Of a stretch of DNA of 64,000 bases, positions 3,826-21,160 are shown in pieces; position 1 is the stretch's first letter; every line of letters starts with the position of its first letter. The stretch is taken from NCBI GenBank assembly GCA_026712905.1, contig JAPOPM010000081.1, positions 1 to 64,000 of the forward strand, read 5' to 3'. The translations under genes and the position numbers were made by a program. Source of the DNA: Deltaproteobacteria bacterium (GTDB lineage Bacteria > Desulfobacterota > Binatia > UBA9968 > JAJDTQ01). Under the pieces are notes generated by a model. That model was not told the origin of the DNA. It made no database searches and saw only the letters and a list, made by a program, of their open reading frames with translations.

Positions 3826-5058
3826 TCACGCCGTACGGCGTCGGGACGAGCTCTTGATGCGCCGCGGGGTTTGTTTCTTGTACTGGAGGTACCAGTCGTA
3901 GATGCGGTCGGCGACGGCGTCCTTGCTCATGAGCGGGAGCGGGGTGGCGCTGCCGTCGCGGTCGAGCAGCGTGACCACGTTGGTGTCCACGTCGAAACCG
4001 CTGCCCTCCTGGGTCACGTCGTTGGCCACCAGCAGATCGAGATTCTTCTTGTCCAGCTTGGCGCGGGCGTTGTCCATCAGGGACTCGGTCTCGGCGGCAA
4101 AACCCACTACCACTTGGTGACGCTTGCGAGCGGCCAGCTCGGCCACGATATCCGGATTGGGGACGAACTCCACGCTCAGGGAGCCGTCACCGCGCTTCAT
4201 CTTCCGGGCCGATGTCGCCCGCGGCCGGTAGTCGGCCACCGCCGCCGCCATAAAGACCGCGGTGGTGGTTTCGAACTCCGCCAACACGGCCTGATGCATC
4301 TCTTCGGCCGTGACCACCGGCACGGTCTTCACGCCGGTGGGCGGAGCCAGCGCCGTGGGGCCGCTTACCAGCGTCACCTGGGCGCCGCGTCGGGCCGCGG
4401 CCCGGGCCAGCGCGTAACCCATCTTCCCCGACGAGCGGTTGGAGAGGTAGCGCACCGGGTCCAGAGGCTCCCGGCTCGGGCCCGCGGTGATCAGGATGTG
4501 CTCGCCCGAAAGGTCCTTGGGCCGGAGCAGCGCACGGATCTCCTCGACGATGGCCGGGGGCTCCGGAAGCCGGCCCTTGCCCTCGTAGCCGCACGCCAGC
4601 GAGCCGGAGGCGGACTCCAAGACATGGTAGCCTGCGTCGCGCAGCTTCGCCAGATTGGCCTGAACCAAGGGGTGCGCCAGCATGTGCACGTTCATCGACG
4701 GCACCACCAGCACGGGCGCCTGGGTGGCAAGGACCACGGTGGTGAGGAGGTCGTCGGCGATGCCCGCGGCGAGCTTGCCGACGATGTTGGCGGTGGCGGG
4801 AGCGATCACCATCAGGTCGGCGCTGTCCGCCAGGTTGATGTGGCCGATCTCGGATTCCTGGGTCAGGCTGAAGAGGTCCGTGGCCACGGGGGCGCCCGAG
4901 AGGGTCTGGAAGCTCAGCGGCGTGACGAACTCGGCGGCCCCCCGAGTCATGACGACCCGGACGGTGCAGGAATCCTGCACCAGCAGACGGACCAGTTCCA
5001 GCGCCTTGTAGCAGGCGATGCCCCCGGTAACGCCCAGCACGATGTTCGGCTTCTCCAC
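3826..5058 (-). CDS. coaBC: Bifunctional phosphopantothenoylcysteine decarboxylase / phosphopantothenate-cysteine ligase
   Basis: This enzyme carries out two steps of coenzyme A synthesis: joining cysteine to phosphopantothenate, then FMN-dependent decarboxylation. The N-terminal CoaC half shows GVTGGIACYKALELVRLL, the active-site His in IGHINLADSADLMVIAPATAN, the PSMNVHM motif and the Cys-containing ACGYEGKGRLPEP loop. The C-terminal CoaB half begins at about residue 190 with ILITAGPSREPLDPVRYLSNRSSGKMG and continues through AAVADYRP, KMKR and FAAET. I take the GTG at 5058 as start because it places VEKPNIVLGVTGG at the N-terminus as in the family; an in-frame ATG at 5103 would add 15 unconserved residues. 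It is divergent from mlaA. Confidence 0.95.
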   Translation of the reverse strand: MEKPNIVLGVTGGIACYKALELVRLLVQDSCTVRVVMTRGAAEFVTPLSFQTLSGAPVATDLFSLTQESEIGHINLADSADLMVIAPATANIVGKLAAGIADDLLTTVVLATQAPVLVVPSMNVHMLAHPLVQANLAKLRDAGYHVLESASGSLACGYEGKGRLPEPPAIVEEIRALLRPKDLSGEHILITAGPSREPLDPVRYLSNRSSGKMGYALARAAARRGAQVTLVSGPTALAPPTGVKTVPVVTAEEMHQAVLAEFETTTAVFMAAAVADYRPRATSARKMKRGDGSLSVEFVPNPDIVAELAARKRHQVVVGFAAETESLMDNARAKLDKKNLDLLVANDVTQEGSGFDVDTNVVTLLDRDGSATPLPLMSKDAVADRIYDWYLQYKKQTPRRIKSSSRRRTA

Positions 5059-5210
5059 GGTCTCGTCTTCCCCTCGTCGTGTCGCACTCAAACCAGAAAA
5101 CAAGGTATCCCATCAATAGGTCGTTTACAAACCGCCGGACGTTCGTACCGCGGGTTGCTTTCAAAGGCCTCAGTGGTATTCTTGGGGAACCTCGGCGACT
5201 CCATACACTC

Positions 5211-5960
5211 ATGCGAAAACTGCATTTCCCCCTTCTCTTGCTCCTTCTTCTCCAACTGAGCCTGGCCCAACCCGCGGCTTCTCAGGGAGGATCCGCCGCC
5301 GGCCAGGAGGACGCGCCCGCTGTCAAGGAATTGAGCACGCGCGACCAGCACTACGACCGGATCGAATGGTTCAACGAGAAGATGTTCGCGTTCAACAGCG
5401 CTTTCGACCATTTCGTGTTGAAGCCCGTTGCGCTGACCTATGGCAGCATCCTGCCCACGCCCGCACAGGACGGCGTCCGCAGGGCCATCAACAACCTCGA
5501 CGTGGTTCGGAAGGTCGTCAACAATACCCTTCAAGGCAGACCGGTCAGCGCCAGCCGGGAGCTGGCCCGGTTCCTCATCAACAGCACCGTGGGCATCGCC
5601 GGCATCTTCGACATGGCCACCAAACTGGGCCTGGAACCCAGCGATCAGGACATGGGCATCACGTTGGGCGTATACGGGATCAGCCACGGCGCCTATCTCG
5701 TCTTGCCGCTTCTGCCTCCCACCACGTTCCGGGACGGCGTAGGCATGGCGGCGGACTCGTTGATGAATCCTCTGGGATATTTCGCTCCCTACTATGTGCC
5801 CCTGTCCGTCCGGGGCGTTGACATCGTGAACAATCGCGCCCTCAACAACAAGGTGTTCGAGGAGCTGGAACGCAGCATCGACCCCTACAGCTCGGCGCGG
5901 AACGCATACCTGCAAATCCGGCAGGGCAAGCTCCAGGCAGCGCGCGAAGCGGGGTACTAG
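5211..5960 (+). CDS. mlaA: MlaA/VacJ-family phospholipid transport protein
   Basis: MlaA sits in the outer membrane and feeds mislocalised phospholipids from the outer leaflet to the Mla retrograde pathway. The 249-residue protein has a leucine-rich signal peptide (residues 1-20). The MlaA fold follows: RIEWFNEKMFAFNSAFDHFVLKPVA, the NNLDVVRKVVNNTLQGR stretch, LARFLINSTVGIAGIFDMATKLGL, and YLVLPLLPPTTFRDGVG. Family members normally have a lipobox cysteine; the sequence here around the cleavage site (SLAQPAASQG) has none, so this copy may be soluble or held by protein contacts. No other mla genes are nearby. Confidence 0.88.
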   Translation: MRKLHFPLLLLLLLQLSLAQPAASQGGSAAGQEDAPAVKELSTRDQHYDRIEWFNEKMFAFNSAFDHFVLKPVALTYGSILPTPAQDGVRRAINNLDVVRKVVNNTLQGRPVSASRELARFLINSTVGIAGIFDMATKLGLEPSDQDMGITLGVYGISHGAYLVLPLLPPTTFRDGVGMAADSLMNPLGYFAPYYVPLSVRGVDIVNNRALNNKVFEELERSIDPYSSARNAYLQIRQGKLQAAREAGY

Positions 5961-6026
5961 TGTCGTGTCCCGTAGGGTGCCGTCACGGCGGCACGACCGA
6001 GCTGACGAAAACTCTGCGATGAAGCC

Positions 6027-7139
6027 ATGAGCAAGCCATCCCTCCTTTCGGGGCGGAAGATCGACCCCAAGCCCATCGACGCCGGCACGAGCATCGTCGA
6101 TCTCATCGACGACAACTTCGTCTCCTACAACAGCGGGCGTCTGCGAGAGGCCTGTCAGCTCTTCACCGAGAAGATCCTCGCGGACGACGTGACCGTGGGA
6201 CTCAGCATCACCGGGGCGCTGACGCCGGCGGGGCTCGGCATGACCGCCTTCATCCCGCTCATCGAGCACGGCTTCGTCGACTGGATCGTCAGCACCGGCG
6301 CGAACCTCTATCACGACACCCACTTCGCCATCGGCCTGTCCATGCACCGGGGCACCTTCGAGGCCGACGACGTGGACCTGCGGGAACAAGGCGTCGTGCG
6401 CATCTACGACATCTTCTTCGACTACGACGTGCTCATCTCCACCGACGACTTCTTCCGCGAGATCCTCAAGGCGCCCGAGTTCCAGAAGGAGATGGGGACC
6501 GCGGAGATGCATTACCGCGTGGGCCGCTATCTCGACGAGCGCGAGAAGATCCTGGGGCTGGAGCGGCGCTCGCTCTTGGCCGCCGCCTACCGGAGCGGCG
6601 TGCCGGTATACACCTCCTCGCCCGGGGACAGCTCCATCGGCATGAACGTCGCCGCCCTCGCACTCAAGGGCAACGGCCTGCGCTTCGACGTGTCGCGCGA
6701 CGTCAACGAATCCGCCGCCCTGGTGCTCGAGGCCAAGCGGCGCGGCGGACGCAGCGCCGCGGTCATCCTCGGCGGCGGCTCGCCCAAGAACTTCCTGCTC
6801 CAGACCGAGCCGCACATCCAGGAGGTGTTGGGGCTGGAGGAAAAGGGCTTCGACTACTTCATCCAGGTCACCGACGCGCGCGTCGACACCGGCGGCCTCT
6901 CCGGGGCGACGCCGGCCGAGGCGGTGAGCTGGGGCAAGGTGGACCCGGACCAACTGCCGGACTCCGTGGTCTGCTACGTCGACAGCACCATCGCCGTCCC
7001 GCTGATGACCGCCTACGCCATCAACAAGCACGCGCCGCGCAAGCTGAAGCGCCTCTACGACACACGGGAGGAGGCGCTGGAGCACATCGCCGGCGAGATC
7101 CGCGAGAAGTTCGGCAACGTGCCGCTGGCGCAGCGCTGA
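6027..7139 (+). CDS. Deoxyhypusine synthase-family protein (bacterial DHS-like)
   Basis: This 370-residue protein belongs to the deoxyhypusine/homospermidine synthase fold, which transfers the aminobutyl group of spermidine in an NAD-dependent reaction. Conserved elements include STGANLYHD (residues 89-97), [11 protein letters not shown] (about 198-207), LGGGSPKNF (248-256) and the catalytic lysine in SWGK (Lys304). Bacteria have no eIF5A, so the acceptor is probably a small amine such as putrescine (homospermidine formation) or an unknown protein. It is 67 bases downstream of mlaA on the same strand; moeA follows after 73 bases. Family is firm, substrate is not. Confidence 0.88.
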
Positions 7140-7212: not shown

Positions 7213-8466
7213 ATGACCACGACAAATGCTCACAAGGCATTTTTCAGGGTGGTGACGCCGGCGGAGGCGTTGGCGGCATTGTGCCAGGTCGACCCCGTCG
7301 AAGCGGAGGCTGTCCCCACCACCGAGGCGCGCGGCCGCGTGCTGGCCGAAGACCTCTACTCGCAAGTGGATCTCCCCCACTTCAACCGGGCCGGCATGGA
7401 CGGCTACGCGGTCATGGCGCGGGATACCTTCGGCGCCAGTCCCGCCCTGCCCGCCTACCTCAGGCTCGCGGGAACCGTGGAGATGGGAGAGGAGGCCACG
7501 CGCCGCCTGGGCGCGCGCGCGGCCGTGCGCATCTCCACCGGCGGCATGCTTCCACCCGGGAGCGACGCCGTAGTCATGGTGGAGCACACCGAGGAGACCG
7601 GCGACGGGTCCGTGGAGATCCACAGGGCCGCCTCCCCCTGGCTCAACGTCATCCAGGTGGGCGACGACATCCGCAAGGGCGATCCCGTGTTCGCGCGCGG
7701 AAGGCGGCTGCGCGCCCATGACCTCGGGGCGCTCACCGGCATCGGCATCGCGTCGGTGCCGGTGTACCGCAAACCGCGGGTGACCCTCATCTCCACGGGC
7801 GACGAGATCGTCGGGGTGGACCGGGAGCCCCGGCCCGGACAGGTGCGCAACATCAACCAGCACTCGCTGGCCGGCCTCATCGCGGAGTGCGGCGCCACGA
7901 TGAACGATCTCGGCGTGGTGCCCGACGAACCGGCGGCGTTGCGGGCCGCGCTGACCGAAGGCCTTGGCTGGGGCGACCTGGTGCTGCTCTCGGGCGGCAG
8001 TTCCATGGGCACGCGGGACATGGCGGTGGAGGTCATTCAATCGTTGCCGGATTCGCTGATCTTCTTTCACGGCATCTCCGTAAGCCCGGGCAAACCCACC
8101 ATCTATGCCCACGCCGCGGGGAAGTCCGTACTGGGACTTCCCGGCTACCCGGTGTCCGCGCTGGTGATATTCGACCTGTTCGCCGCGCCGCTGATCCGCG
8201 CGCTGTCCGGCGAGAGCACGCCCGCCGCGCACACGGGACGGAACACGGTTCGGGCGGTGATGGACACCAACGTTTCGTCGCAGACCGGCCGCGAGGATTA
8301 CGTACGCGTCACCCTCGCGAGCCGCGGCGAAACGGTGTACGCCCTACCGCTGCCCAGCAAGTCCGGCGCCATCTTCACCCTGGTCAAGGCCGACGGCATG
8401 GTGCGCATCGACCTCAACCGCGAGGGACTGGAGCAGGGCGAGGAGGTGGAGGTACTGCTTTTCTGA
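7213..8466 (+). CDS. moeA: Molybdopterin molybdenumtransferase MoeA
   Basis: MoeA inserts molybdate into adenylylated molybdopterin in the cytosol, the last step of basic Moco synthesis. The 417-residue length is normal. Signatures seen are PHFNRAGMDGYAV (residues about 56-68), RISTGGMLPPGSDAVVMVEHTEE, the MoCF-domain STGDEIVG, LLSGGSSMGTRD and FHGISVSPGKPT. A second MoeA-type gene starts 24 bases after its stop, so the two are likely co-transcribed. A molybdopterin oxidoreductase that could use the cofactor is encoded at 33,700-35,754. Confidence 0.95.
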   Translation: MTTTNAHKAFFRVVTPAEALAALCQVDPVEAEAVPTTEARGRVLAEDLYSQVDLPHFNRAGMDGYAVMARDTFGASPALPAYLRLAGTVEMGEEATRRLGARAAVRISTGGMLPPGSDAVVMVEHTEETGDGSVEIHRAASPWLNVIQVGDDIRKGDPVFARGRRLRAHDLGALTGIGIASVPVYRKPRVTLISTGDEIVGVDREPRPGQVRNINQHSLAGLIAECGATMNDLGVVPDEPAALRAALTEGLGWGDLVLLSGGSSMGTRDMAVEVIQSLPDSLIFFHGISVSPGKPTIYAHAAGKSVLGLPGYPVSALVIFDLFAAPLIRALSGESTPAAHTGRNTVRAVMDTNVSSQTGREDYVRVTLASRGETVYALPLPSKSGAIFTLVKADGMVRIDLNREGLEQGEEVEVLLF

Positions 8467-8490
8467 TACGATAAGAAGCGTTGGCAACCG

Positions 8491-10425
8491 ATGGCGCGAA
8501 AACGGTACCTCAAGAAGACCCCGCTGGAGGAGGCGCGCTCTCTCTTCCTGAGCCGCGTCGACCCAACCCTGCTGGAGGCCGAGACGGTGGCGGTGGCCGA
8601 CGCCCTCCACCGGGTCACCGCCGAGCCGGTTTTCGCGAAGATGTCCTCGCCGCACTACCACGGCTCGGCCATGGACGGCATCTGCGTGCGCGCGGAAGAC
8701 ACCTTCGGAGCCACGGAGTTCACGCCGCGGGAGTTGCGGCTGCTCGCGGACGAGGGAGACCCGCAAGGCCGGTTCGCCTACCTGGACACCGGCCAGCCGT
8801 TGCCGTCCTGGGCCAACGCGGTGATCATGATCGAGAACGTGCGCGAGACCGACGTCGCCGCCGTGTCCATCGATCAGGCGGCGACCCCGTGGCAGAACGT
8901 ACGCCTGGTGGGTGAGGACGTCGTGGCCACCGAGCTGCTGCTGCCGCGCAACCACCGGCTGCGGCCCTACGACCTTGGCGCCATCCTGGCGGCGGGCCAT
9001 ACCACGGTGCGGGTCAAGGCGCGCCCGCGGGTGGCCCTCATCCCCACGGGCGACGAGATCACGCAACCGGGAGATTCGGCGCGGCCGGGCGAGATCATCG
9101 ATTTCAACTCCACGGTCCTGGGAGCCATGGTGACGGAGTCCGGCGGCACCCCGGTGACCCTTCCCCCTGTCGCGGACGACCCCGCGCTCCTGAAACACGC
9201 CCTGGACGAAGCGTTGAAGGATCATCACCTCGTAGCGCTCATCGCCGGCTCCTCCGCCGGCGCGCACGACTTCACCGCGGAGGTCATCGACGACGCGGGC
9301 GAGCTTCTGGTGCACGGCATCGAAGTCATGCCCGGAAAGCCGGCCGTGCTGGGGGTCGCCGCGGGCAAGCCCGTCATCGGCATTCCCGGTTATCCTGTAT
9401 CGGCCATCGTCATCGCGCGAGAGATCCTCCAGCCCGCGCTCGCACGGCTGCTGGCCGCGGGCGCCTCATCCCCTCCGAAGGTCCGCGCCGTGGCGCCGCG
9501 CAAGATTCCGTCGCGGCTGGGCCTGGAGGAGTTCGTCCGCGTGACCCTGGGCCGGGTGGAGGAACGCCTCGTGGCCGTGCCGCTGGCGCGCGGCGCCGGG
9601 GTCATCAGCACCATGGTGCGCGCCGACGGATTCCTGCGCATACCGGGAATGGTGGAAGGGATCAACGCCGGCGAGGAAGTCGACGTGGAGTTGCTGCGCT
9701 CGCCGGACGAGGTGGAGCACACCATCCTGTGCACCGGCAGCCACGACCTCTCCATCAGCGTGCTGGAGGACCAGCTCAAGCGCCGGGACCCGCGCCTCAA
9801 GATCGCCGACGCCAACGTCGGCAGCCTGGGCGGCCTGCACGCGATTCGCCGCGGCGAGACCCACATGGCCGGCACCCACCTGCTGGACCCCGACACCGGT
9901 GCCTACAACGTCCCGGACATACGGCGGGTGTTGCCCAAGGCGCCCGTCGTGCTCGTGCACTGCGTCAAGCGGCGTCAGGGACTGCTCGTGCCGCGCGGCA
10001 ATCCCAATGGACTGTCGGGCATCGCCGACCTGGGTCGACGGGACCTCCACTTCGTCAACCGCCAGCCCGGCTCGGGCACCCGAGTGCTGCTGGATTTCGA
10101 ACTGGCGCGGCTCGGCGTGGACCCGGCCGCGGTCCAGGGGTACGAGCACGAAGAGTTCACACACATGGCGGTGGCGGTGGCCGTGGCCAGCGGCCTCGCG
10201 GACACCGGCCTGGGAATCCTCTCCGCGGCCGAGGCCCTCGGGCTGGACTTCATCCCGGTGGGCGACGAGCAGTACGATCTGCTGCTACTGCGGTCATTCC
10301 ACGAATCCCAGGCGGGGGCCACGCTGCTGGCGGTGCTTGGATCGCAGGAGTTCAGGGAAGCGATGGAGTCCCTCGGCGGCTACGACTGCTCCGCCACGGG
10401 GGAGATCCTCTACCAGCAGCGGTAG
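8491..10425 (+). CDS. MoeA-like protein fused to a periplasmic-binding-protein-like domain
   Basis: Residues 1 to about 405 are a second full MoeA unit (HYHGSAMDGICV, TGQPLPSWANAVIMIE, PTGDEITQPG, IAGSSAGAHD, HGIEVMPGKPAVLG). From about residue 412 (HTILCTGSHDLSISVLEDQL) to 644 comes a PBP/LysR-effector-like domain with RQPGSGTRVLLDFEL and a late FIPVGDEQYDLL strand pair. No signal peptide is present, so the domain works in the cytosol, presumably sensing molybdate, tungstate or pterin. Such fusions are known in archaea and some bacteria. Paired with the preceding stand-alone moeA, it may handle a different metal (Mo versus W) or regulate insertion; that role is inference. Confidence 0.9.
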   Translation: MARKRYLKKTPLEEARSLFLSRVDPTLLEAETVAVADALHRVTAEPVFAKMSSPHYHGSAMDGICVRAEDTFGATEFTPRELRLLADEGDPQGRFAYLDTGQPLPSWANAVIMIENVRETDVAAVSIDQAATPWQNVRLVGEDVVATELLLPRNHRLRPYDLGAILAAGHTTVRVKARPRVALIPTGDEITQPGDSARPGEIIDFNSTVLGAMVTESGGTPVTLPPVADDPALLKHALDEALKDHHLVALIAGSSAGAHDFTAEVIDDAGELLVHGIEVMPGKPAVLGVAAGKPVIGIPGYPVSAIVIAREILQPALARLLAAGASSPPKVRAVAPRKIPSRLGLEEFVRVTLGRVEERLVAVPLARGAGVISTMVRADGFLRIPGMVEGINAGEEVDVELLRSPDEVEHTILCTGSHDLSISVLEDQLKRRDPRLKIADANVGSLGGLHAIRRGETHMAGTHLLDPDTGAYNVPDIRRVLPKAPVVLVHCVKRRQGLLVPRGNPNGLSGIADLGRRDLHFVNRQPGSGTRVLLDFELARLGVDPAAVQGYEHEEFTHMAVAVAVASGLADTGLGILSAAEALGLDFIPVGDEQYDLLLLRSFHESQAGATLLAVLGSQEFREAMESLGGYDCSATGEILYQQR

Positions 10426-10857: not shown

Positions 10858-12354
10858 TCAGCGCTCGCCACCGAAGCTTGCCGTGAGGTCATTGCGTTCA
10901 ATCACCCCGGCCACACCCTCGTGGGAGTCGCCGAAGAAACCGGCGGTGATCCGGCCGGCGTCGCCGCCGGCGCGAACGAGGCTGTTTCCTCGTAGGACGA
11001 CATCGTAAACCAGGTCGCCCTCGCCCCAGTGCGTACCGCTACCCATTGGCCCGGGCGGCTGCCCGCCGGACCAGGACTCCATCGCCGTCAGCCGGAGCGT
11101 ACCGGCGCGCGTGTCGAATCGAATCGTGAGGTCGGCCACACCGGCGACAGTCGCGCCGTCCGGCGTGAACCCAAGGACGCGACCGGACCAAGCGAGACTC
11201 CCCGATCGGGATGGGGCTCTCGCCAGGTCGGCGCGCGCCGCGGGACCGCGAACCCATGGCCGGGCCAAGCCGTTCCGGAGCCCGACGCCGAATGCCACCA
11301 TCGCGCCCGCCGCGTCGAACTCGCCCAGGACGTGCGTCGAGGTGTCCTCCCAGGACTCCAGGGCGCGGGCGATGTCGCCGGGCGTCGCGCCGGGCGCGAG
11401 CCTTCCGTGGACGGCGAGAAGGACCTCGCGGTCCAGCGGATCGAGTATCTCGCCCGGCCTCACCGGTCCGTACACCGGACGCATGACCGATCGGGGGAAC
11501 CGATCCGGGTCGGCGTGCTGGCGCCCGAGCACGTGCAGCATCTCGTGCACCAGGACGTGAAGACGGCCTTCGCCGGTGGCGCGCGCGGGGTCCACCCACA
11601 CTTGGCCCGTCCAATGGGAGCGACGCGGCTCACCCGTGGCGCGTCTCAAGACCCAGCCGTCGAACTCGCCCTGTCCCGAAACATGCGGGGTCTTCGCCGC
11701 GCGTTCGGCCCCCAACCATACTTCCGCGGGCGCGAATCGGACGAAGATCTCCCCGTTGGGTACGGCAGGCCGTTCGCACGGGACACTCTCGCACTCCAAC
11801 GTGCCGAAGCCTTCGGCCGCCTCCATCGGGACGAGAACGTCGTCGAACCGCAACCGGTGTTCCCGCGGCAGTGCCGCGTTGATCCACTGCACCGCGCGTA
11901 CCGTCTGATCGACCAACTCGGAGGTCGCTCCTTCGACCACCCGGACGGTCATCCTCGCTCGGCGCGGCTTGCGGATGCCGGAAGTCTCCTCGGCTTCGAT
12001 CGATAGATATTCGATCAGCTTGCGCGCGCCCACGCCGTCGGCGACACGGCCGTACGCCAGCCGGACGTTTCCATGCTCGCCCACGACGGCCAGGGATCCC
12101 GGCGCGGGTACAACGCCCGGGTTCACGTGCAATGACACGCCATCATGGATGGTGGGAGGGTTCAGCGCATCCGACGGGCGTTGCAGCGGCAACGCGGGAA
12201 CGCGTCTCGGCGGGACGGCGGACGGGGCCGTGGGCCCTGTCGGAGTCGGCGGCGATTCACCTCCCGCGGCGCGTGGCCCCAAGCCCTCGCCAACAGACAG
12301 GACCGCAACGAACCCGGCGACCACGGCCATGGATATGGTCCGGCGCCGCTTCAT
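10858..12354 (-). CDS. Secreted metzincin-like zinc metalloprotease with a C-terminal TbpB-like barrel domain
   Basis: The 498-residue protein starts at the ATG at 12,354 with a positively charged, hydrophobic signal sequence (residues 1-24) and a Pro-rich linker. The zinc motif HEMLHVLGRQH (His270, Glu271, His274, His280) fits the HExxHxxGxxH consensus of matrixin/metzincin proteases. Residues beyond about 390 form repeated short strands (LAWSGRVLGFTP, TIRFDTRAGTLRLTAMESW, ITAGFFGDSHEGVAGVIER, TASFGGER), the pattern of the C-terminal barrel of transferrin-binding-protein-B-like surface proteins. No lipobox is seen. A clear paralogue is encoded at 35,751-37,208. The substrate is unknown. Confidence 0.75.
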   Translation of the reverse strand: MKRRRTISMAVVAGFVAVLSVGEGLGPRAAGGESPPTPTGPTAPSAVPPRRVPALPLQRPSDALNPPTIHDGVSLHVNPGVVPAPGSLAVVGEHGNVRLAYGRVADGVGARKLIEYLSIEAEETSGIRKPRRARMTVRVVEGATSELVDQTVRAVQWINAALPREHRLRFDDVLVPMEAAEGFGTLECESVPCERPAVPNGEIFVRFAPAEVWLGAERAAKTPHVSGQGEFDGWVLRRATGEPRRSHWTGQVWVDPARATGEGRLHVLVHEMLHVLGRQHADPDRFPRSVMRPVYGPVRPGEILDPLDREVLLAVHGRLAPGATPGDIARALESWEDTSTHVLGEFDAAGAMVAFGVGLRNGLARPWVRGPAARADLARAPSRSGSLAWSGRVLGFTPDGATVAGVADLTIRFDTRAGTLRLTAMESWSGGQPPGPMGSGTHWGEGDLVYDVVLRGNSLVRAGGDAGRITAGFFGDSHEGVAGVIERNDLTASFGGER

Positions 12355-12578
12355 GGTTTTGCGCGGCAAACCCTTCCTTCCAACAAAACGGCGACTCAAT
12401 GCGGACCCCGGCCTCATTGCCACGGACACACGCCGCGACCTCAAAGGGGTTTCCCTTATAGGGCGACGATCAAGACGTGTCAAAACGCGCCGGACGCGCT
12501 CTTGCGCGGCGTACCCCTCTTCGCTACCGTGAGCCGTGAGGCCCAGTCAGCCAATGGGTCAATGGCAAGGAGGCGAAC

Positions 12579-13907
12579 ATGAAGCGCGTGGCACACGTCG
12601 TGAACCAGTTCTTCGCCGGTATCGGCGGGGAGGAGAAGGCGGACGTCGCCGCCGGCACCCTCGACACCCTCGCGGGGCCGTCGCGCGGCCTGCAGCGGCT
12701 GCTGGAGGGTCGGGCGGAGGTGGCGCCCACCATCTACTTCGGCGACAACCACTTCCACGAACAGCCGGAGGAGGCGCGGGCGGCGCTTCTGCGGGAGATC
12801 GCGGCGGCCGAGGCGGACGTCGTGGTGCTCGGACCCGCGTTCAACGCCGGGCGCTATGGCCTCGCCTGCGTCGAGATCGGCCACATGGTCGCGGCCGAAC
12901 TGGAGCGCGTGTGCGTGACGGCCATGCACGAGGACAACCCGGCGGTGGACGCATACCGCGAGTACCACGACGCGCGGCTGTTCCTGTTGCCCACCACGGA
13001 GACGGCGGCGGGCATGGGCAAGGCGCTGGAGGAACTCGCCCGTTTCGTTCTCCGGCGGCTCCAGGACGAACCCGTGGGCGCTGCCGAGGACGAGGGCTAC
13101 CTGTCGCGGGGGATCCGCTTCCAGGAGCGCAGCGGGCGGACCGGCGCGGACCGGGCGCTGGACATGCTGTTGGACAAGATCGAAGGGAAGCCCTTCGCCA
13201 CCGAGATCCCCATGCAGACATGGGACCGGGTGACGCCGGCCGCCGCGATCAAGCAGGTGGGCAAGGCCAAGATCGCGCTGGTCACCACCAGCGGCGTGGT
13301 GCCGTGGGGCAACCCGGACGGCTTCAAGACCTTCCGCAACACGTTCTGGCGCAAGTATCCGGTGGCGGAGCTGAAGACCATGGAGCCGGGCACGTGGGAA
13401 GCGGTGCACGGCGGCTACAACGTGGCCAACATGAACGCCAACCCGCTCTACGGCGTTCCCCTGGACGCCCTGCGGGAGCTCCAGCAGGAGGGCAAGTACG
13501 AGGACCTCTACCCCGCCTACTACGTCGTCCCCGGCAACCAGGGCTCACCCGCAGCCATGCAGCGGATGGGCGAGGAGATCGCCGCGGAGCTCAAGGCCAA
13601 CAGCGTGGATGCCGCGCTGTTGGTGAGCACGTGAGGAACCTGCAGTCGCAGCGGAGCTGTGATCAGTAAAGAATTGGACCGTGCCGGAGTTCCCGTGTCG
13701 ATGATCAGCGCCATGTTCCCGCTGGCGGAGCAGGTGGGCGCCAGCCGCATCGTCAAGGGCGTCAAGATCCCCCATCCGTGCGGCGACCCGACCCTGCCGC
13801 CCGAGGTCGACGAGAAGCTGCGCAAGTCCATCGTCGAGACCGCGCTCAAGGCCCTCGAGGAAGAGGTGGAGGAGAGCACCGTGTTCACGCCGGAAACCGC
13901 CTCATGA
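12579..13907 (+). CDS. grdB: Selenoprotein GrdB homologue (glycine/betaine/sarcosine reductase component B), UGA at codon 352 read as selenocysteine
   Basis: In clostridia GrdB is the substrate-binding selenoprotein of glycine, sarcosine and betaine reductases. This gene encodes 442 residues if the in-frame TGA at 13,632-13,634 is Sec352. Residues 1-351 match the family (VNQFFAGIGGEEKAD, LGPAFNAGRYGLAC, LVTTSGVVPWGNPDG). Past the TGA the same frame reads GTCSRSGAVISKELDRAGVPV and then IPHPCGDPTLPPE and STVF, the normal GrdB C-terminus. The redox motif is U-G-T-C; the second Cys of the clostridial UxxCxxC is Ser here. A conventional annotation would stop at 13,634 and split the gene. The start ATG follows AAGGAGG. 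It overlaps the next gene by ATGA. Confidence 0.92.
13645..13663 (+). promoter_or_regulatory. bSECIS-like hairpin directing UGA recoding
   Basis: Ten bases after the UGA an 8-bp stem (13,645-13,652 pairing with 13,656-13,663, two G-U pairs) closes a GGA triloop. Spacing and G-containing apical loop fit the bacterial SECIS element bound by SelB. The element lies inside the coding sequence, as required in bacteria. Folding was done by eye. Confidence 0.65.
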
Positions 13908-15229
13908 GCGGCGCCCGGCACGCCACACCGCTGGAGCTGGCGGAGTTCCCGGTTCGGGATCTCCGCTTCGGCGGGACCCTGCAATACGCCGGCGGCACGC
14001 TGGAGGTGGCGGAAGCGGAGCTGGTGGAACTGGCTTCGCGGGATCCCCGGATCCTCGAGGTCGGGCTCGACATCGTGCGTCCGGGCGAGCGGATACGGGT
14101 CACCGGCATCCGCGACGTGGTGGAACCCAGGGTCAAGGTGGGCGGCGACGCGCAGGTGTTTCCGGGCATCACCAGTCCGGTGGTGCCTGTGGGGCGCGGC
14201 CGCACCCATCGGCTCTCGGGCATGACCCTCATCACCACCGCCGCCTACGAGGGCACCATCCGCACCGGCACCACCGCGCAGCGAAGCGCCATCCTGGACA
14301 TGTGGGGGCCTGGGGCCGACCTCTCGGGCTTCAGCGGTGTTCCGAGTCTGGTGCTGAACCTGCGGCTGCCGCCGGACCTGATCGAGGCCGAGGCGCACCA
14401 GGTGATCCAGGCCGCCGAGTACCGGGTGGCGCAGAGGCTCGCAGAGGCCACGGCCGCGGCCGAACCCGCCACCGTCGAAACGTTCGGCGCGGCGCACGGC
14501 CATGCAAACTTGCCCAAGGCCGTGGTGATCGTGGGCTGCATCACCGAGTCGGAGCATCTGCCGTCCGGCCTCGGGTACTACGGGCTGCCGGTGCGCGAGT
14601 CCCTGGCCACCGTGGTGCACCCCAACGAGATGATGGACGGCGCGGTCACCGGCAACACGCTGAAGACCATCGCCTACTACCCCACCACCTGGGACTGGCA
14701 GAACCAGCCGCTGGCCATGCGCCTGTCCCGGGAACACGGCAAGCGGGTCGATTTCGCCGGCGTGATCCTGCAGCGCATCCGCTTCGAGGCCTTCCGCGAG
14801 AAGGAAGTGGCGGCACACAACGCATCGCAGGTGGCGCGCGCGCTGGGAGCGGAAGCCGCCCTCATCACCTGGCTCGGTTCGGGCAACGCCTTCCTGGAAG
14901 TGATGCTGACGGTACGCGCGTGCGAGGAGCAAGGCGTCCGGACGGTGCTGGTCACGTATGAATACGGTGGCCAGGAGGGCACGGACTCACCGCTGCTCTT
15001 CTACGACACCCACGCCGACGCGGTGGTGAGCACCGGCAGCCGCGACCGCATCCTGGAGCTGCCGCCCGCCGACCGGGTGGCCGGCGCGTACCAGGAACTC
15101 CAGGTGCTCAACTATCCCGGCGCCCCCGTGGTTTCGGCCCTGGACACCATCACGCTGGACGCCACCGACGCCATCATCGGCGCCACCGACCTGTGGGGCG
15201 GCCGCGACTGGACGTGCCGGGCGCACTGA
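13904..15229 (+). CDS. GrdE-like glycine reductase component B subunit lacking the pyruvoyl-forming cysteine
   Basis: The 441-residue protein aligns along its length with GrdE, the proprotein that supplies the alpha and beta subunits of component B: RFGGTLQYAGG, LDIVRPGERIRVTGIRDVVEPRVKV, GRGRTHRLSG, WGPGADLSGFS, NEMMDGAVTGN, LVTYEYGGQEG. In clostridial GrdE, Cys242 in the SGNC motif is cleaved autocatalytically to form the pyruvoyl group that forms a Schiff base with substrate. Here the matching position is Thr252 (TGNT), so normal pyruvoyl formation is unlikely. The ATG overlaps the upstream stop as ATGA, so the two proteins are translationally coupled. No GrdA, GrdC or GrdD gene is nearby. 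Confidence 0.88.
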   Translation: MSGARHATPLELAEFPVRDLRFGGTLQYAGGTLEVAEAELVELASRDPRILEVGLDIVRPGERIRVTGIRDVVEPRVKVGGDAQVFPGITSPVVPVGRGRTHRLSGMTLITTAAYEGTIRTGTTAQRSAILDMWGPGADLSGFSGVPSLVLNLRLPPDLIEAEAHQVIQAAEYRVAQRLAEATAAAEPATVETFGAAHGHANLPKAVVIVGCITESEHLPSGLGYYGLPVRESLATVVHPNEMMDGAVTGNTLKTIAYYPTTWDWQNQPLAMRLSREHGKRVDFAGVILQRIRFEAFREKEVAAHNASQVARALGAEAALITWLGSGNAFLEVMLTVRACEEQGVRTVLVTYEYGGQEGTDSPLLFYDTHADAVVSTGSRDRILELPPADRVAGAYQELQVLNYPGAPVVSALDTITLDATDAIIGATDLWGGRDWTCRAH

Positions 15230-15244
15230 GCGGAAACGTCGGGA

Positions 15245-15569
15245 CGTCATTTCGGCGGAACGGGCTGTATCGAGACTCGGCTCGGATGAGAGATGGCGCG
15301 ACCACCCCGACTCGTCATTCCCGCGGAACAGGCTGTATCAAAACGTCGCCCAGGCAAGAACTGGCGCCAACCCCTCGGGTCGTCATTCCCGCGGAAGCTT
15401 GCCCTCGACCCCGATCGGGGGCGGGAATCCATGCGAGGGTGGTGGGGGAACGCCCCTGTAGTGCCCCGCCACCCCTGGATTCCCGCTTCCGCGGGAATGA
15501 CGACTTGGGGTCGTGGTGCCGTTTCGTAGCCCAGCGGAGTCTCGACACACCCTGTGCCGCGGGTATGAC
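15245..15569. repeat. Composite palindromic repeat (CAGGCTGTRTCAAAAC ends, ATTCCCGCGG core)
   Basis: The gap between the grd genes and the VOC gene is filled by repeat copies. CAGGCTGTATCAAAAC at 15,329-15,344 faces a degenerate inverse (TCTCGACACACCCTG) near 15,540-15,554. Inner arms GTCATTCCCGCGGAAGC (15,382) and GGATTCCCGCTTCCGCGGGAATGAC (15,477-15,503) are inverted. A degenerate half copy starts at 15,245. No gene is seen here. Confidence 0.75.
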
Positions 15570-15594: not shown

Positions 15595-16044
15595 ATGCCC
15601 GTTGAAGTCATCTGTATCGACCACATCTTCATCCCTGTTCGGGATCTGGCCGCGGCCGAGGCGTTCTACGACAAGGTCATGCCGGTTCTGGGCTTCCGCA
15701 AGGGCAGAGCTTCCGACAAGGTGTCGCCGCGGGCGCGCTACGACAACCGGCACCTGACGTACTGGATCGTGGCGCGGGACAGCGCTTCGGTGGAGCCGGG
15801 CGCGAGTCAGGGCGCACCGTCACACCTGTGCTTCCGCGTGGTGGACGAAGAGGCCGTGGACCGGGCTTGCCAAGAGCTCCGCGCGGTCGGCATCGACGCC
15901 ACCGAGCCGCAAGCCTACACGCAGTACTCACCAGACTACTACGCAACCTTCTTCTCCGACCCCGACGGCCTTCTGTTGGAGGTAATCAACTTCAACGGGC
16001 GCCGGCAGCGGCGCATGTTCGATTGGGACACTCATCAAGCTTGA
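15595..16044 (+). CDS. VOC-family (glyoxalase/bleomycin resistance) metalloprotein
   Basis: A single 149-residue vicinal-oxygen-chelate domain with two beta-alpha-beta-beta-beta units. It opens with IDHIFIPVRDLAAAEAFYDKVMPVLGF (metal His9 in IDHIFI) and its second half has SHLCFRVVDEEAVDRACQELRAVGI and YYATFFSDPDGLLLEVINF, with the usual late Glu metal ligand. Family members act as isomerases, dioxygenases or resistance proteins. The substrate is not deducible and neighbours give no help. Confidence 0.85.
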   Translation: MPVEVICIDHIFIPVRDLAAAEAFYDKVMPVLGFRKGRASDKVSPRARYDNRHLTYWIVARDSASVEPGASQGAPSHLCFRVVDEEAVDRACQELRAVGIDATEPQAYTQYSPDYYATFFSDPDGLLLEVINFNGRRQRRMFDWDTHQA

Positions 16045-17363: not shown

Positions 17364-18299
17364 ATGAAAGCCGTACGGATACATGAGTTTGGGGGGCTCG
17401 ACAGCCTGCGGGTCGAGGCCGCACCGCGGCCGGAGCCCGGGGCCGGGGAGGTGCTCGTACGAATACACGCCGCGGGCATCAACCCGGTGGACTGGAAGAC
17501 CTGCGCGGGCGAGGGCGTGGCGTCGCGGCTCGACGACCCGTTCCCGTTTATTCCGGGGTGGGACGTCTCGGGTGTGGTGGAGGCGCTGGGGGCGGACATC
17601 GCGGACTTCCGGGTCGGAGACGCGGTGTGCGGCATGGTGCGCTGGCCCTGGCGTGGCGGCGGCTACGCCGAATACGTGGCCGCGCCGAGCGCGGAACTGG
17701 TCGCCAAGCCCGACACAATGGACGATGCGCAGGCGGCGGGGTTGCCGCTGGCGGCGCTGACCGCGTGGCAGGCGCTATTCGACATAGCGGACGTCCAGGC
17801 CGGACAGAAAGTGCTGATTCACGCGGCGGCGGGTGGCGTCGGCCACATCGCGATCCAGTTGGCCATGTGGAAGGGCGCGCACGTGGTCGGCACGGCGTCG
17901 GCGCGCAACGAGGCATTCCTGCGTGAGTTGGGCGTGGATGACGTCATCGACTACAACGCGACGCGCTTCGAGGAGGCGGTGTCCGGCGTGGACGTCGTGC
18001 TGGACGGTGTCGGCGGTGAGGTCCAGGAGCGCTCTTGGCCGGTTATCCGGCGTGGCGGCGTGCTCGCTTCGATTCGCGGGCGTCCCCGCGCGGAGGAAGC
18101 CGCGGCCCGCGGCGTGCGTGCGCAGCACGTGTCGGTCCACGCCGATGCGGCACAGCTCCTGGCCATCGCCGCCTTGGCGGCGGAGGGGCGACTCCAGGTG
18201 CACGTCGATGCGGCGTTCGCGCTGGACGAGGTGCGCAAGGCGCACGAGGTAAGCAAGACCGGGCACGCGCGGGGCAAACTGGTCCTGCGGACGGGGTGA
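17364..18299 (+). CDS. NADP-dependent quinone oxidoreductase-like MDR protein
   Basis: A 311-residue zinc-independent medium-chain dehydrogenase/reductase. The GroES-like half shows VLVRIHAAGINPVDWKTCAGEG and FIPGWDVSGVVEALGADI; the Rossmann half shows LIHAAAGGVGHIAIQLAMWKGAHVVGTAS. Such enzymes reduce quinones or enones with NADPH. It has no Cys/His zinc-binding lobe. It is divergent from the nuclease/PIN module. Substrate unknown. Confidence 0.88.
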   Translation: MKAVRIHEFGGLDSLRVEAAPRPEPGAGEVLVRIHAAGINPVDWKTCAGEGVASRLDDPFPFIPGWDVSGVVEALGADIADFRVGDAVCGMVRWPWRGGGYAEYVAAPSAELVAKPDTMDDAQAAGLPLAALTAWQALFDIADVQAGQKVLIHAAAGGVGHIAIQLAMWKGAHVVGTASARNEAFLRELGVDDVIDYNATRFEEAVSGVDVVLDGVGGEVQERSWPVIRRGGVLASIRGRPRAEEAAARGVRAQHVSVHADAAQLLAIAALAAEGRLQVHVDAAFALDEVRKAHEVSKTGHARGKLVLRTG

Positions 18300-18470
18300 C
18301 GCGATTCGGACGTGATCATTGCCGCACGAGGCCATTGGGTCCGTTTTGGGGTGGCTTCGCGGCTCTCGCCTCGCCCTTGCGTGCGCCGGGGCTTTGGTGC
18401 ATGGTCGCATTTTGGTGCCTGCATCGCACAACGGCAGAACAGTAATTTCGCCAAAGGGAGGGACGTCGTC

Positions 18471-19274
18471 ATGGCGACACGAATCAAGCATCTGGCCATC
18501 GTGAGCGAGAACTACGCCATCGAGGAGAAGTTCTACCAAGCGGTGTTCGGCATGAAGACCGCCGAGCGCGCACGCATCGAGAGCGCATCGGTGGTGAGCG
18601 ACGGCTACGTGGGCATCAACATCAACCCGCGCCGGCCCGGACGCCAGGGCGGCTTCGACCACTTCGGCTTCGAGGTGGACGACGTCGAGGGGGTAGCCGC
18701 GCGCATGGGCGAGAAGTATCCGGAGGTGCACATTCTCAAGCGGCCGAGCAACCGCCCGTTCGCCGGCCTGAGCACGCATGACCCCGCGGGGAACGTGTTC
18801 GACCTTTCCCAGGAAGGGATGGAGAACCGCACCGACGTGTACGTCGACGGCCAGCACGAGGCCGACCGCTACGTCAAGCACTTCGTGCTGCGCGCGGTGG
18901 AACCGGAGCGGGTGGCGCAGTTCTACCGGGACATTTTCGACCTGGTGGAAACCGAGAAGCCCGCGGACGATCCCAACTGCTACCTGACGGACGGACGGGT
19001 CACGCTGATCATCTCGCCGTGGAAGATCTCCGACTACGCCGGCGCCGGCATCGAGCGCCCGGCGCTGGACCACATCGGCTTCAAGGTGGAGAGCGTGCAG
19101 GCGGTCAAGGACCGGCTTGAGGCACTGTCCAAGCGCAACCCCTACCTGAGCCCCGGCCCGGTGGGCGCGGGACCGGAGGCGGAAGCGCGGCTCGCGCTGT
19201 TCGCCAAGTGCAAGTTCGGCGAGTATCAGCTCGCGGATCCCGACGGCGTGATGATCGACATCAGCGAGCACTGA
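18471..19274 (+). CDS. Two-domain VOC protein (extradiol-dioxygenase-like)
   Basis: The 267-residue protein has two VOC units, the first from RIKHLAIVSENYAIEEKFYQAVFG and the second from YVKHFVLRAVEPERVAQFYRDIFDL. The second unit also carries LDHIGFKVES and ends LADPDGVMIDISEH. Metal-binding candidates are the His residues in GGFDHFGFEV, LDHIGF and the terminal Glu. The ATG at 18,471 follows AAGGGAGGGA; the frame open from 18,312 has no better start. Function could be ring cleavage or isomerisation; the substrate is unknown. Confidence 0.8.
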   Translation: MATRIKHLAIVSENYAIEEKFYQAVFGMKTAERARIESASVVSDGYVGININPRRPGRQGGFDHFGFEVDDVEGVAARMGEKYPEVHILKRPSNRPFAGLSTHDPAGNVFDLSQEGMENRTDVYVDGQHEADRYVKHFVLRAVEPERVAQFYRDIFDLVETEKPADDPNCYLTDGRVTLIISPWKISDYAGAGIERPALDHIGFKVESVQAVKDRLEALSKRNPYLSPGPVGAGPEAEARLALFAKCKFGEYQLADPDGVMIDISEH

Positions 19275-20080: not shown

Positions 20081-21160
20081 CTAGAGCCCCGACGGCAGGT
20101 TGTAGAAGCGTTCCGCGTTGCGCGCCAACACCGCGGCCTTGTCATCCTCGCTCAACTCATCGCTGTCCATCACCTCGCCCAGCTCTTCCTTGCAGAACTC
20201 GTTGTTGACCTCGTGGGGGAAGTCCGAGGAGTAGACCCACGGCTTGTTCCCAATCGTGCGGATGGCATGGGCCAGGTCGGGCTCGTGGCCCTCGCAGCCT
20301 ACGAAGATCCGGCCCTCGTCGATGTGCCGCTTCACGTAATCGCTCACCGCCTCGCCGTCCCGAAGCTGCAGGAACTCGCTCCGGGGATCGTGCTGGATGT
20401 GGGTCTCGTAGGAACGGTCGAAGCGTTCCAGGCACATCAGCAGCCACGCCACGCCGCCTTCCAGGAAGCCGATGCGCACGTTGGGGTAGCGGTCGAAGAT
20501 GCCGTTGAAGACGATGCCGCCCATGGAGATCATCTGCCCGAACGGATGGCCGAGGGCGTGCACCGGAGCGTACGGATGCAGGTCGTCCATGCCGAGGTTC
20601 TCGTGCGCGCCGCCGTGGATGCCGAGGCAGCAGCCGAGGCGGTTCGCCTCCTCGTAGATGGGCCAGTAGTACTTGTGGCCGAGGTGCAACTGGATGCCGG
20701 TCGACGGCAGCATGGCGCCGCACATGCCCAGCTCCTCCACCGCCCGGCGCAGTTCCTTCACCGCCTCCGCCGGCTCCTGCAGCGGTATCAGGGCCACCGC
20801 CTGGAAGCGCGGGCTCTTCTGTACGTAGTTCTCGGCGATCCAGTCGTTGTAGGCGCGCGCCAAGTCGATGGCCCAGTCCTGGGCCACCACCTTGCCGTAG
20901 GAAAGTCCCACCGTGGGATAGAGCACGGTCCGGTCAATGCCCACGTCCTCCAGGAACTCCACCCAGCCGTCGTAACCCACCTGCTGAAACGAGCCCTCCG
21001 GGAGCTTGTGCGCGTTGGCCGAATGCAAGTGGTCCAGCGGCGGGAACGGGTTGGACCAGCGCATCTGCTCCTGCACTTCCCGAGGAAAGCGGCTGGTGAT
21101 GGCCTCCATGTCCTCCACCACGTGCCCGTCGCCGTCGATGATCTGATATTTGTTCGCCAT
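20081..21160 (-). CDS. ACMSD-type amidohydrolase family protein
   Basis: The 359-residue TIM-barrel protein begins with the metal motif IIDGDGHVVED, where the usual D-x-H-x-H is reduced to D-G-D-G-H. Later ligands are in GIHGGAHE and the terminal VYSSDFPHEVNN carries the conserved barrel Asp. Relatives decarboxylate aminocarboxymuconate semialdehyde, uracil-5-carboxylate or hydroxybenzoates, or hydrolyse amides. It is one of four such paralogues in the window (see 38,594, 53,329 and 63,042). A GGAGGTTCCC site precedes the ATG. Substrate unknown. Confidence 0.85.
   Translation of the reverse strand: MANKYQIIDGDGHVVEDMEAITSRFPREVQEQMRWSNPFPPLDHLHSANAHKLPEGSFQQVGYDGWVEFLEDVGIDRTVLYPTVGLSYGKVVAQDWAIDLARAYNDWIAENYVQKSPRFQAVALIPLQEPAEAVKELRRAVEELGMCGAMLPSTGIQLHLGHKYYWPIYEEANRLGCCLGIHGGAHENLGMDDLHPYAPVHALGHPFGQMISMGGIVFNGIFDRYPNVRIGFLEGGVAWLLMCLERFDRSYETHIQHDPRSEFLQLRDGEAVSDYVKRHIDEGRIFVGCEGHEPDLAHAIRTIGNKPWVYSSDFPHEVNNEFCKEELGEVMDSDELSEDDKAAVLARNAERFYNLPSGL

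Follow-up and report, generated by a model that had tools for sequence, protein, structure and literature searches.

The selenoprotein gene pair grdB-grdE in the 64,000-nucleotide stretch of DNA analysed here (the window), which comes from an uncultured bacterium, encodes a GrdB that keeps its selenocysteine (Sec) and a GrdE-family protein without the cysteine that is converted to a pyruvoyl group in processed GrdE. We consider this pair to be, with fair probability, an unprocessed, pyruvoyl-free and substrate-specific protein-B module, comparable to betaine and fluoroacetate reductases and acting on a substrate that needs no Schiff base. This reading draws on the family membership of both proteins, the Sec codon and the SECIS-like stem following it, the absent cysteine, and the presence of GrdA and GrdC in genomes where GrdD was not found. 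The central point is in itself ordinary, as pyruvoyl-free B proteins have already been reported, and it is the scale and architecture that are unusual: in contrast to clostridia, there is a large expansion of Cys-less GrdE proteins, an excess of GrdE over GrdB, linked substrate-binding proteins, and GrdA and GrdC without GrdD. If the reading is right, the pyruvoyl group of glycine reductase would be an option rather than a need across most of the sampled GrdE family, and selenium-dependent C-X cleavage would extend well beyond amino acid fermenters. Among the literature matches listed, no paper joined Binatia or Binatota with glycine reductase.

A coupled gene pair with selenocysteine

The two genes are translationally coupled, the ATG of grdE (13904) overlapping the TGA of the upstream grdB (13905-13907) as ATGA (Table 1). 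In a profile search, PF09338 matched residues 10-435 of the downstream protein (8.5e-89; 298.4 bits vs a cut-off of 22.2, profile positions 3-422 of 426). The upstream protein belongs to the selenoprotein B family (TIGR01918, 437.3 bits vs a cut-off of 65.45), carries an in-frame UGA in its UxxC motif, and has a frame open from 12579 provided that the TGA at 13632-13634 is Sec (U352, STUGTC).

Table 1. Coordinates of the gene pair, its selenium signals and the downstream genes in the window.
Feature	Position	Strand	Evidence
GrdB-type selenoprotein, Sec subunit of protein B, 442 aa with Sec352	12579-13907	+	PF07355 1.6e-109; TIGR01918 437 bits
In-frame UGA read as selenocysteine (STUGTCSRSG)	13632-13634	+	U conserved in relatives; SelB and tRNA-Sec in genome
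SECIS-like hairpin 3' of the UGA, stem TCGCAGC / GCTGTGA	13646-13662	+	Covariation
GrdE-family protein without pyruvoyl-forming Cys, 441 aa	13904-15229	+	PF09338; AlphaFold mean pLDDT 91.6
Site matching DGAxxSGNC of processed GrdE, reads DGAVTGNTL	14636-14662	+	T252 = 14657-14659
VOC (glyoxalase-fold) protein	15595-16044	+	PF00903; retained after the pair in orthologous loci
Medium-chain dehydrogenase / quinone-oxidoreductase type protein	17364-18299	+	Synteny
Two-domain VOC protein	18312-19274	+	Synteny
Amidohydro_2 family protein, convergent end of conserved block	20081-21160	-	Synteny

The stem was assessed in 98 distinct 60-base stretches beginning at the UGA, where the pairs from 15-29 to 20-24 form in 97, 98, 97, 98, 98 and 92 of the 98. 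Two of these pairs show two-sided changes (C-G in 72 and T-A in 25; A-T in 62 and T-A in 33), although one covarying pair tracks the Cys/Ser codon after Sec and its partner varies at the third position of an Ala codon. SelB and tRNA-Sec scored above cut-off in seven of seven genomes, compared with 2 and 5, respectively, of the 14 control genomes. The initial annotation held that the selenoprotein partner keeps Sec, and this is borne out by U352 and by the U that each linked GrdB identified for the clade of 71 sequences to which the window protein belongs (see below) carries in its motif. That motif reads UxxCxxS in the clade vs UxxCxxC in the processed type, and a search of the same strand out to 2.6 kb detected no Sec motif for 26 of the 71 members.

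Decay of grdE, with the loss of cysteine as a mere loss of function, is scarcely credible: one paralogue group of the own genome does lack an adjoining GrdB, but the window gene has a full-length frame, its orthologues are 82-95% identical across all 441 residues, and synteny, UGA and SECIS-like stem are conserved. Single-chain AlphaFold models were also confident for both the window GrdE (pLDDT 91.6) and a relative with SGNC (L007; 89.6), and in both the helices and strands near the site come in a similar order. There was no sequence match of weight to the window protein among solved structures and no Foldseek match at E <= 0.001, and the top rows from VIA-align (Z 8.5) covered the C-terminal part only, which we read tentatively as a common alpha/beta arrangement.

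Absence of the processed cysteine across a large clade

PF09338 proteins were collected from a sample of the phylum (present in 13 of 297 genomes), from the class of the relative G302 (32 of 147 genomes), from ten named records and genomes, and from nine loci; a search of plasmids yielded six records only. Of the resulting 150 distinct sequences, 144 with at least 330 aa were kept and 6 shorter ones dropped before counting. SGNC is carried by 13 of the full-length proteins and TC by two PrdA proteins, leaving 129 with neither.

At the corresponding site, the window protein reads DGAV-TGNT-LK and the processed proteins DGAI-T-SGNC, the window protein being shorter by a gap of one residue. In the alignment of the 144 proteins, the SGNC cysteine (13 of 13 SGNC rows) falls opposite L253, or opposite T252 if the gap is shifted, and the window protein thus has Leu or Thr where a pyruvoyl-forming proprotein has the Cys of SGNC or TC. 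In the 71 clade members both columns are free of Cys, and a motif-pattern count found Cys in 0 of 70 readable members (one row was unmatched in each of the sets of 71 clade, 13 SGNC and 58 other sequences). Residues at the site outside the clade include Y, H, W, F, G, S, D and others; among the other rows, 57 of them readable, two have a Cys within the seven residues after DGA (APSYHC), and two betaine-type rows, one of which adjoins an annotated grdH, carry SGSF. The window protein is thus one of a broad group lacking the Cys, rather than a case of a lone substitution.

The initial annotation had described a Thr in place of the pyruvoyl-forming Cys and proposed an alignment of GrdE-like proteins to inspect this column. 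The absence of Cys stands, but the change is not a one-off replacement of Cys by Thr, given the one-residue gap and a column that takes T, A, V, M or S. Thr is present at T252 in all seven window orthologues (80% identity cluster), which is more than chance. Over the 71-member clade the column is nevertheless variable (T 46, A 22, others 3), reads as relaxed rather than as a swapped catalytic residue, and Thr is therefore not a likely processing site. Cleavage at Thr252 or a nearby residue, to give 2-ketobutyryl rather than pyruvoyl as the keto-acyl group, would fit the seven orthologues and the rank of Thr as the commonest clade residue, but it is highly improbable with Ala in 22 members and V, M and S also occurring, with the SGN beside the site and a second Cys (CDK), both seen in processed proteins, lost as well, and with the pyruvoyl groups of characterised Grd and Prd enzymes derived from Cys (PMC9908766). 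The same paper gives a pyruvoyl peptide of Clostridioides difficile GrdE beginning at residue 242, confirmed by mass spectrometry.

Three other cysteines are characteristic of the clade, namely C340 and C438 (each in 69 of 71 members) and C212 of VGC (62 of 71, the remainder being Y, A, V, S or F), and SGNC proteins have no common Cys in any of these columns. On our alignment, we take residue 242 of the C. difficile protein to be the SGNC Cys. If one of the three had taken over, either in processing or as the redox partner of Sec, their conservation would be accounted for, but this appears quite unlikely, as none of them aligns with the cleavage site: C212 lies about 40 residues upstream, faces L or V in SGNC proteins and is replaced in 9 of 71 members, and the model puts C340 within a predicted helix and C438 three residues short of the C-terminus, which would give no normal C-terminal subunit. 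The possibility of another Cys at the cleavage site, for which C212 had been named, can thus be set aside, and both Thr252 and C212 were rejected as processing sites on account of their variable columns. Together with C212, C340 and C438, the residues W263, W265, Q169, N241 and D429, each present in 71 of 71 members and distinguishing the clade from SGNC proteins, would be places to seek a changed pocket.

A quick LG+G4 tree was built from 98 of the 144 rows (representatives at 80% identity) after the motif columns had been taken out. The SGNC rows grouped together (support 88), the two GrdI-type rows standing next to them (98*), and the window protein fell in a clade (99*) of 46 representatives and 71 sequences, all of them Cys-less. 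Close relatives within this clade are named Candidatus Binatia. The tree needs two changes of state for the Cys and is compatible with either gain in processed GrdE or loss here, with the weaknesses that long branches meet and that PrdA is a distant outgroup. The fewest-change reading also allows Cys as the derived state in processed GrdE, on a weak rooting.

The group nearest to the clade is a paralogue of the own genome (contig C189). Six independent loci of this paralogue showed no GrdB homologue, although L032 and L033 are cut close upstream. The paralogue gene itself (L090, 6659-7960) and its relatives in L093, L029, L031 and L173 are GrdE-like genes without a nearby GrdB, and these five loci keep as neighbours an SDR, a TctC or amidohydrolase, a TauD and a molybdopterin oxidoreductase.

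Known reductases and the GrdA, GrdC and GrdD components

The pair shares with the glycine and sarcosine systems (GrdB/GrdE and GrdF/GrdG) the two protein families, the linked genes, the Sec motif, the SECIS-like stem, and GrdA and GrdC. It differs from their protein B by the absence of SGNC or a processing site, by UxxCxxS in place of UxxCxxC, and by the absence of GrdD in 33 genomes; the sarcosine GrdG model (NF040793) gave 202.2 bits vs a cut-off of 780. Betaine reductase (GrdH/GrdI) resembles the pair in that its GrdE-family subunit also lacks the processed Cys, has an HPNE motif before DGA and is partnered by a Sec-containing GrdB. Betaine is unable to form a Schiff base. The window protein is, however, only 29-30% identical to the GrdI-type rows (L039 and L023), lies in a separate clade from these two rows in the quick LG tree, where GrdI stands beside the SGNC proteins, and hit no NCBIfam GrdI model; an Enterococcus betaine-type locus additionally has a BCCT transporter and grdC-grdD alongside. 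In PMC10838667, GrdI (betaine) and FarE (fluoroacetate) are described as lacking autoprocessing cysteines, GrdI is reported not to be a proprotein, and FarB/FarE are predicted to feed GrdA and GrdC. FarE resembles the window GrdE in missing both autoprocessing cysteines (PMC10838667), but the FarE model (NF053623) gave the window protein 103.6 bits vs a cut-off of 675, and the antiporter and radical SAM gene of the far operon are not among the window neighbours scanned.

The initial annotation proposed that half of the catalytic chemistry is retained and half changed, and that the reaction may be pyruvoyl-free. This is supported in part. Sec is indeed kept and the Cys gone, and as no other Cys occupies the site, a reaction without pyruvoyl is what the evidence favours most; a half-changed chemistry nevertheless has precedents in the pyruvoyl-free pairs reported for GrdI and FarE.

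GrdA was found once in each of the own genome and five related genomes (G000 and G297-G301) and twice in G302, and GrdC (PF19364) once in each of these seven. The GrdA of the own genome carries CFVUTAAG, and its GrdC, the gene of which adjoins grdA, scored 507.7 bits against an NCBIfam cut-off of 450. The cysteine in FCA(A/G)P of GrdC is invariant in nine aligned sequences, including canonical Enterococcus GrdC, and may carry the acyl group, a role suggested by weak similarity to KAS III. In the own genome, this grdC-grdA (L109, 7337-9410 of contig C175) adjoins a dipeptide-type ABC transporter and an FMN-dependent dehydrogenase, again with no grdD.

GrdD makes acetyl phosphate. No match above cut-off to GrdD was found in these seven or in 26 further genomes (33 in total), with a positive control at 551.9 bits both times; weak matches to the GrdD model, of 18-27 bits, resemble PlsX. 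Although the genomes are drafts, an absence from 33 of them is hard to blame on gaps, and the glycine reductase system is accordingly incomplete, with GrdA and GrdC present and GrdD not found.

D-proline reductase (PrdA/PrdB) is a distant homologue of the pair in which PrdA, unlike the window GrdE, retains the TC cleavage site. The pair could work in a similar manner, a dithiol completing the reduction on GrdB with no part for GrdA and GrdC, and both the separation of the pair (12579-15229) from grdA-grdC on C175 and the UxxC pair retained in GrdB would agree with this. Such a working is nonetheless unlikely: the PrdA model (TIGR04480) reached 23.4 bits vs a cut-off of 700, GrdA and GrdC are kept in 7 of 7 genomes tested, and clade members occur in operons with grdC (11 of 71) and grdA (8 of 71) within 4 kb. 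The clade is tied directly to GrdA and GrdC by single runs of grdB-grdE-grdC-grdA in three of its loci (L175, L183 and L069), and partial runs are found in L166, L176, L211 and L188.

Proposed working, subunit numbers and gene neighbourhood

For the preferred reading of an unprocessed, pyruvoyl-free module, we infer the substrate class, the unprocessed state of the GrdE chain and the product route. A small carboxylate or similar compound, with quaternary N, S, halide or another leaving group, would bind between the subunits, GrdE serving as substrate-binding and structural subunit. The GrdB selenolate (Sec352) would displace the leaving group to form an alkyl-Se adduct, which would pass to GrdA (Sec in CFVU), and breakage of the GrdA selenoether on GrdC would then yield an acyl thioester. 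As GrdD, the source of acetyl phosphate, was not found, the acyl group would most likely leave as acyl-CoA or by hydrolysis. The missing GrdD poses the sharp question of whether GrdC alone hands the acyl group to CoA.

Several points count against this reading. The linked genes (VOC, dehydrogenase, amidohydrolase, and Tct- or NMT1-type binding proteins) converge on no one compound, grdA-grdC of the own genome is unlinked to the pair, and the GrdB motif is UxxCxxS, not the UxxCxxC that is said to interact with GrdA (PMC13188914). Furthermore, the lack of a pyruvoyl would not by itself rule out a Schiff base, because, according to PMC10298544, the glycine-binding carbonyl of the known enzyme has yet to be identified, and because it has been proposed that the GrdE pyruvoyl keeps GrdB active rather than binding substrate (PMC9908766).

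In 21 genomes, PF09338 had 117 matches and PF07355 89, fragments included, with GrdE outnumbering GrdB in 18 genomes, equalling it in one and falling below it in two. A GrdB gene lies just upstream of 33 of the 71 clade members by rule, with 6 at an edge and 32 with none; after three were moved by eye on account of over-long frames or a 419-base gap (L172, the L217 copy at 4547-7096 and the L202 copy at 7716-9047), 36 have an upstream GrdB vs 29 without. GrdB genes are fewer than GrdE genes in 10 of 11 loci with at least two full-length GrdE-like genes, L183 and L211 having three GrdE and one GrdB each, and L164 and L215 being short contigs where GrdB may be cut off.

This excess of GrdE suggests swappable specificity subunits, several of which may share a GrdB. 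A wider version is possible, if doubtful, in which GrdE-family proteins of this bacterial group would be swappable, cofactor-less specificity subunits, each with its own uptake binding protein and several sharing one GrdB/GrdA/GrdC, for combinatorial C-X cutting with acyl-CoA as output, the latter because GrdD is missing. The size and modularity of the gene family, together with the lack of the last enzyme, hint that small molecules may be cut apart here in a manner that has received little study. The relative G302 (locus L030) shows an unusual expansion, with 27 PF09338 and 20 PF07355 matches in an 8.3-Mb groundwater MAG, and its 27 GrdE-like copies could be a test bed for leaving groups displaceable by selenolate, halides included.

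Genes for substrate-binding proteins (NMT1, SBP_bac_6 or TctC type) lie within 4 kb on the same strand of 48 of the 71 clade members vs 12 of the 73 other PF09338 genes (Fisher p 4e-10, on rows that are related); in this count, loci end at contig ends and each cluster is named from one representative. Orthologous loci of the window keep grdB-grdE and, where their reach suffices, mostly the VOC, dehydrogenase, second VOC, TctC, TctA and amidohydrolase genes, of which TctC and TctA are missing from the window locus. The substrate could not be read from the neighbours, as VOC, dehydrogenase, Tct, amidohydrolase, hydantoinase, UbiD and others disagree.

Elsewhere in the window, positions 15300-15500, between grdE and the first VOC gene, hold several copies of a ATTCCCGCG-containing motif resembling extragenic palindromic repeats. 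An ORF of 541 aa without a Pfam match (10858-12483, reverse strand) carries a metzincin-like HEMLHVLGRQH motif and has relatives in the same place in L025, L026 and L172. Further upstream (7213-10425, forward strand) are tandem MoeA-type genes, the second of which is fused to a periplasmic-binding-like domain.
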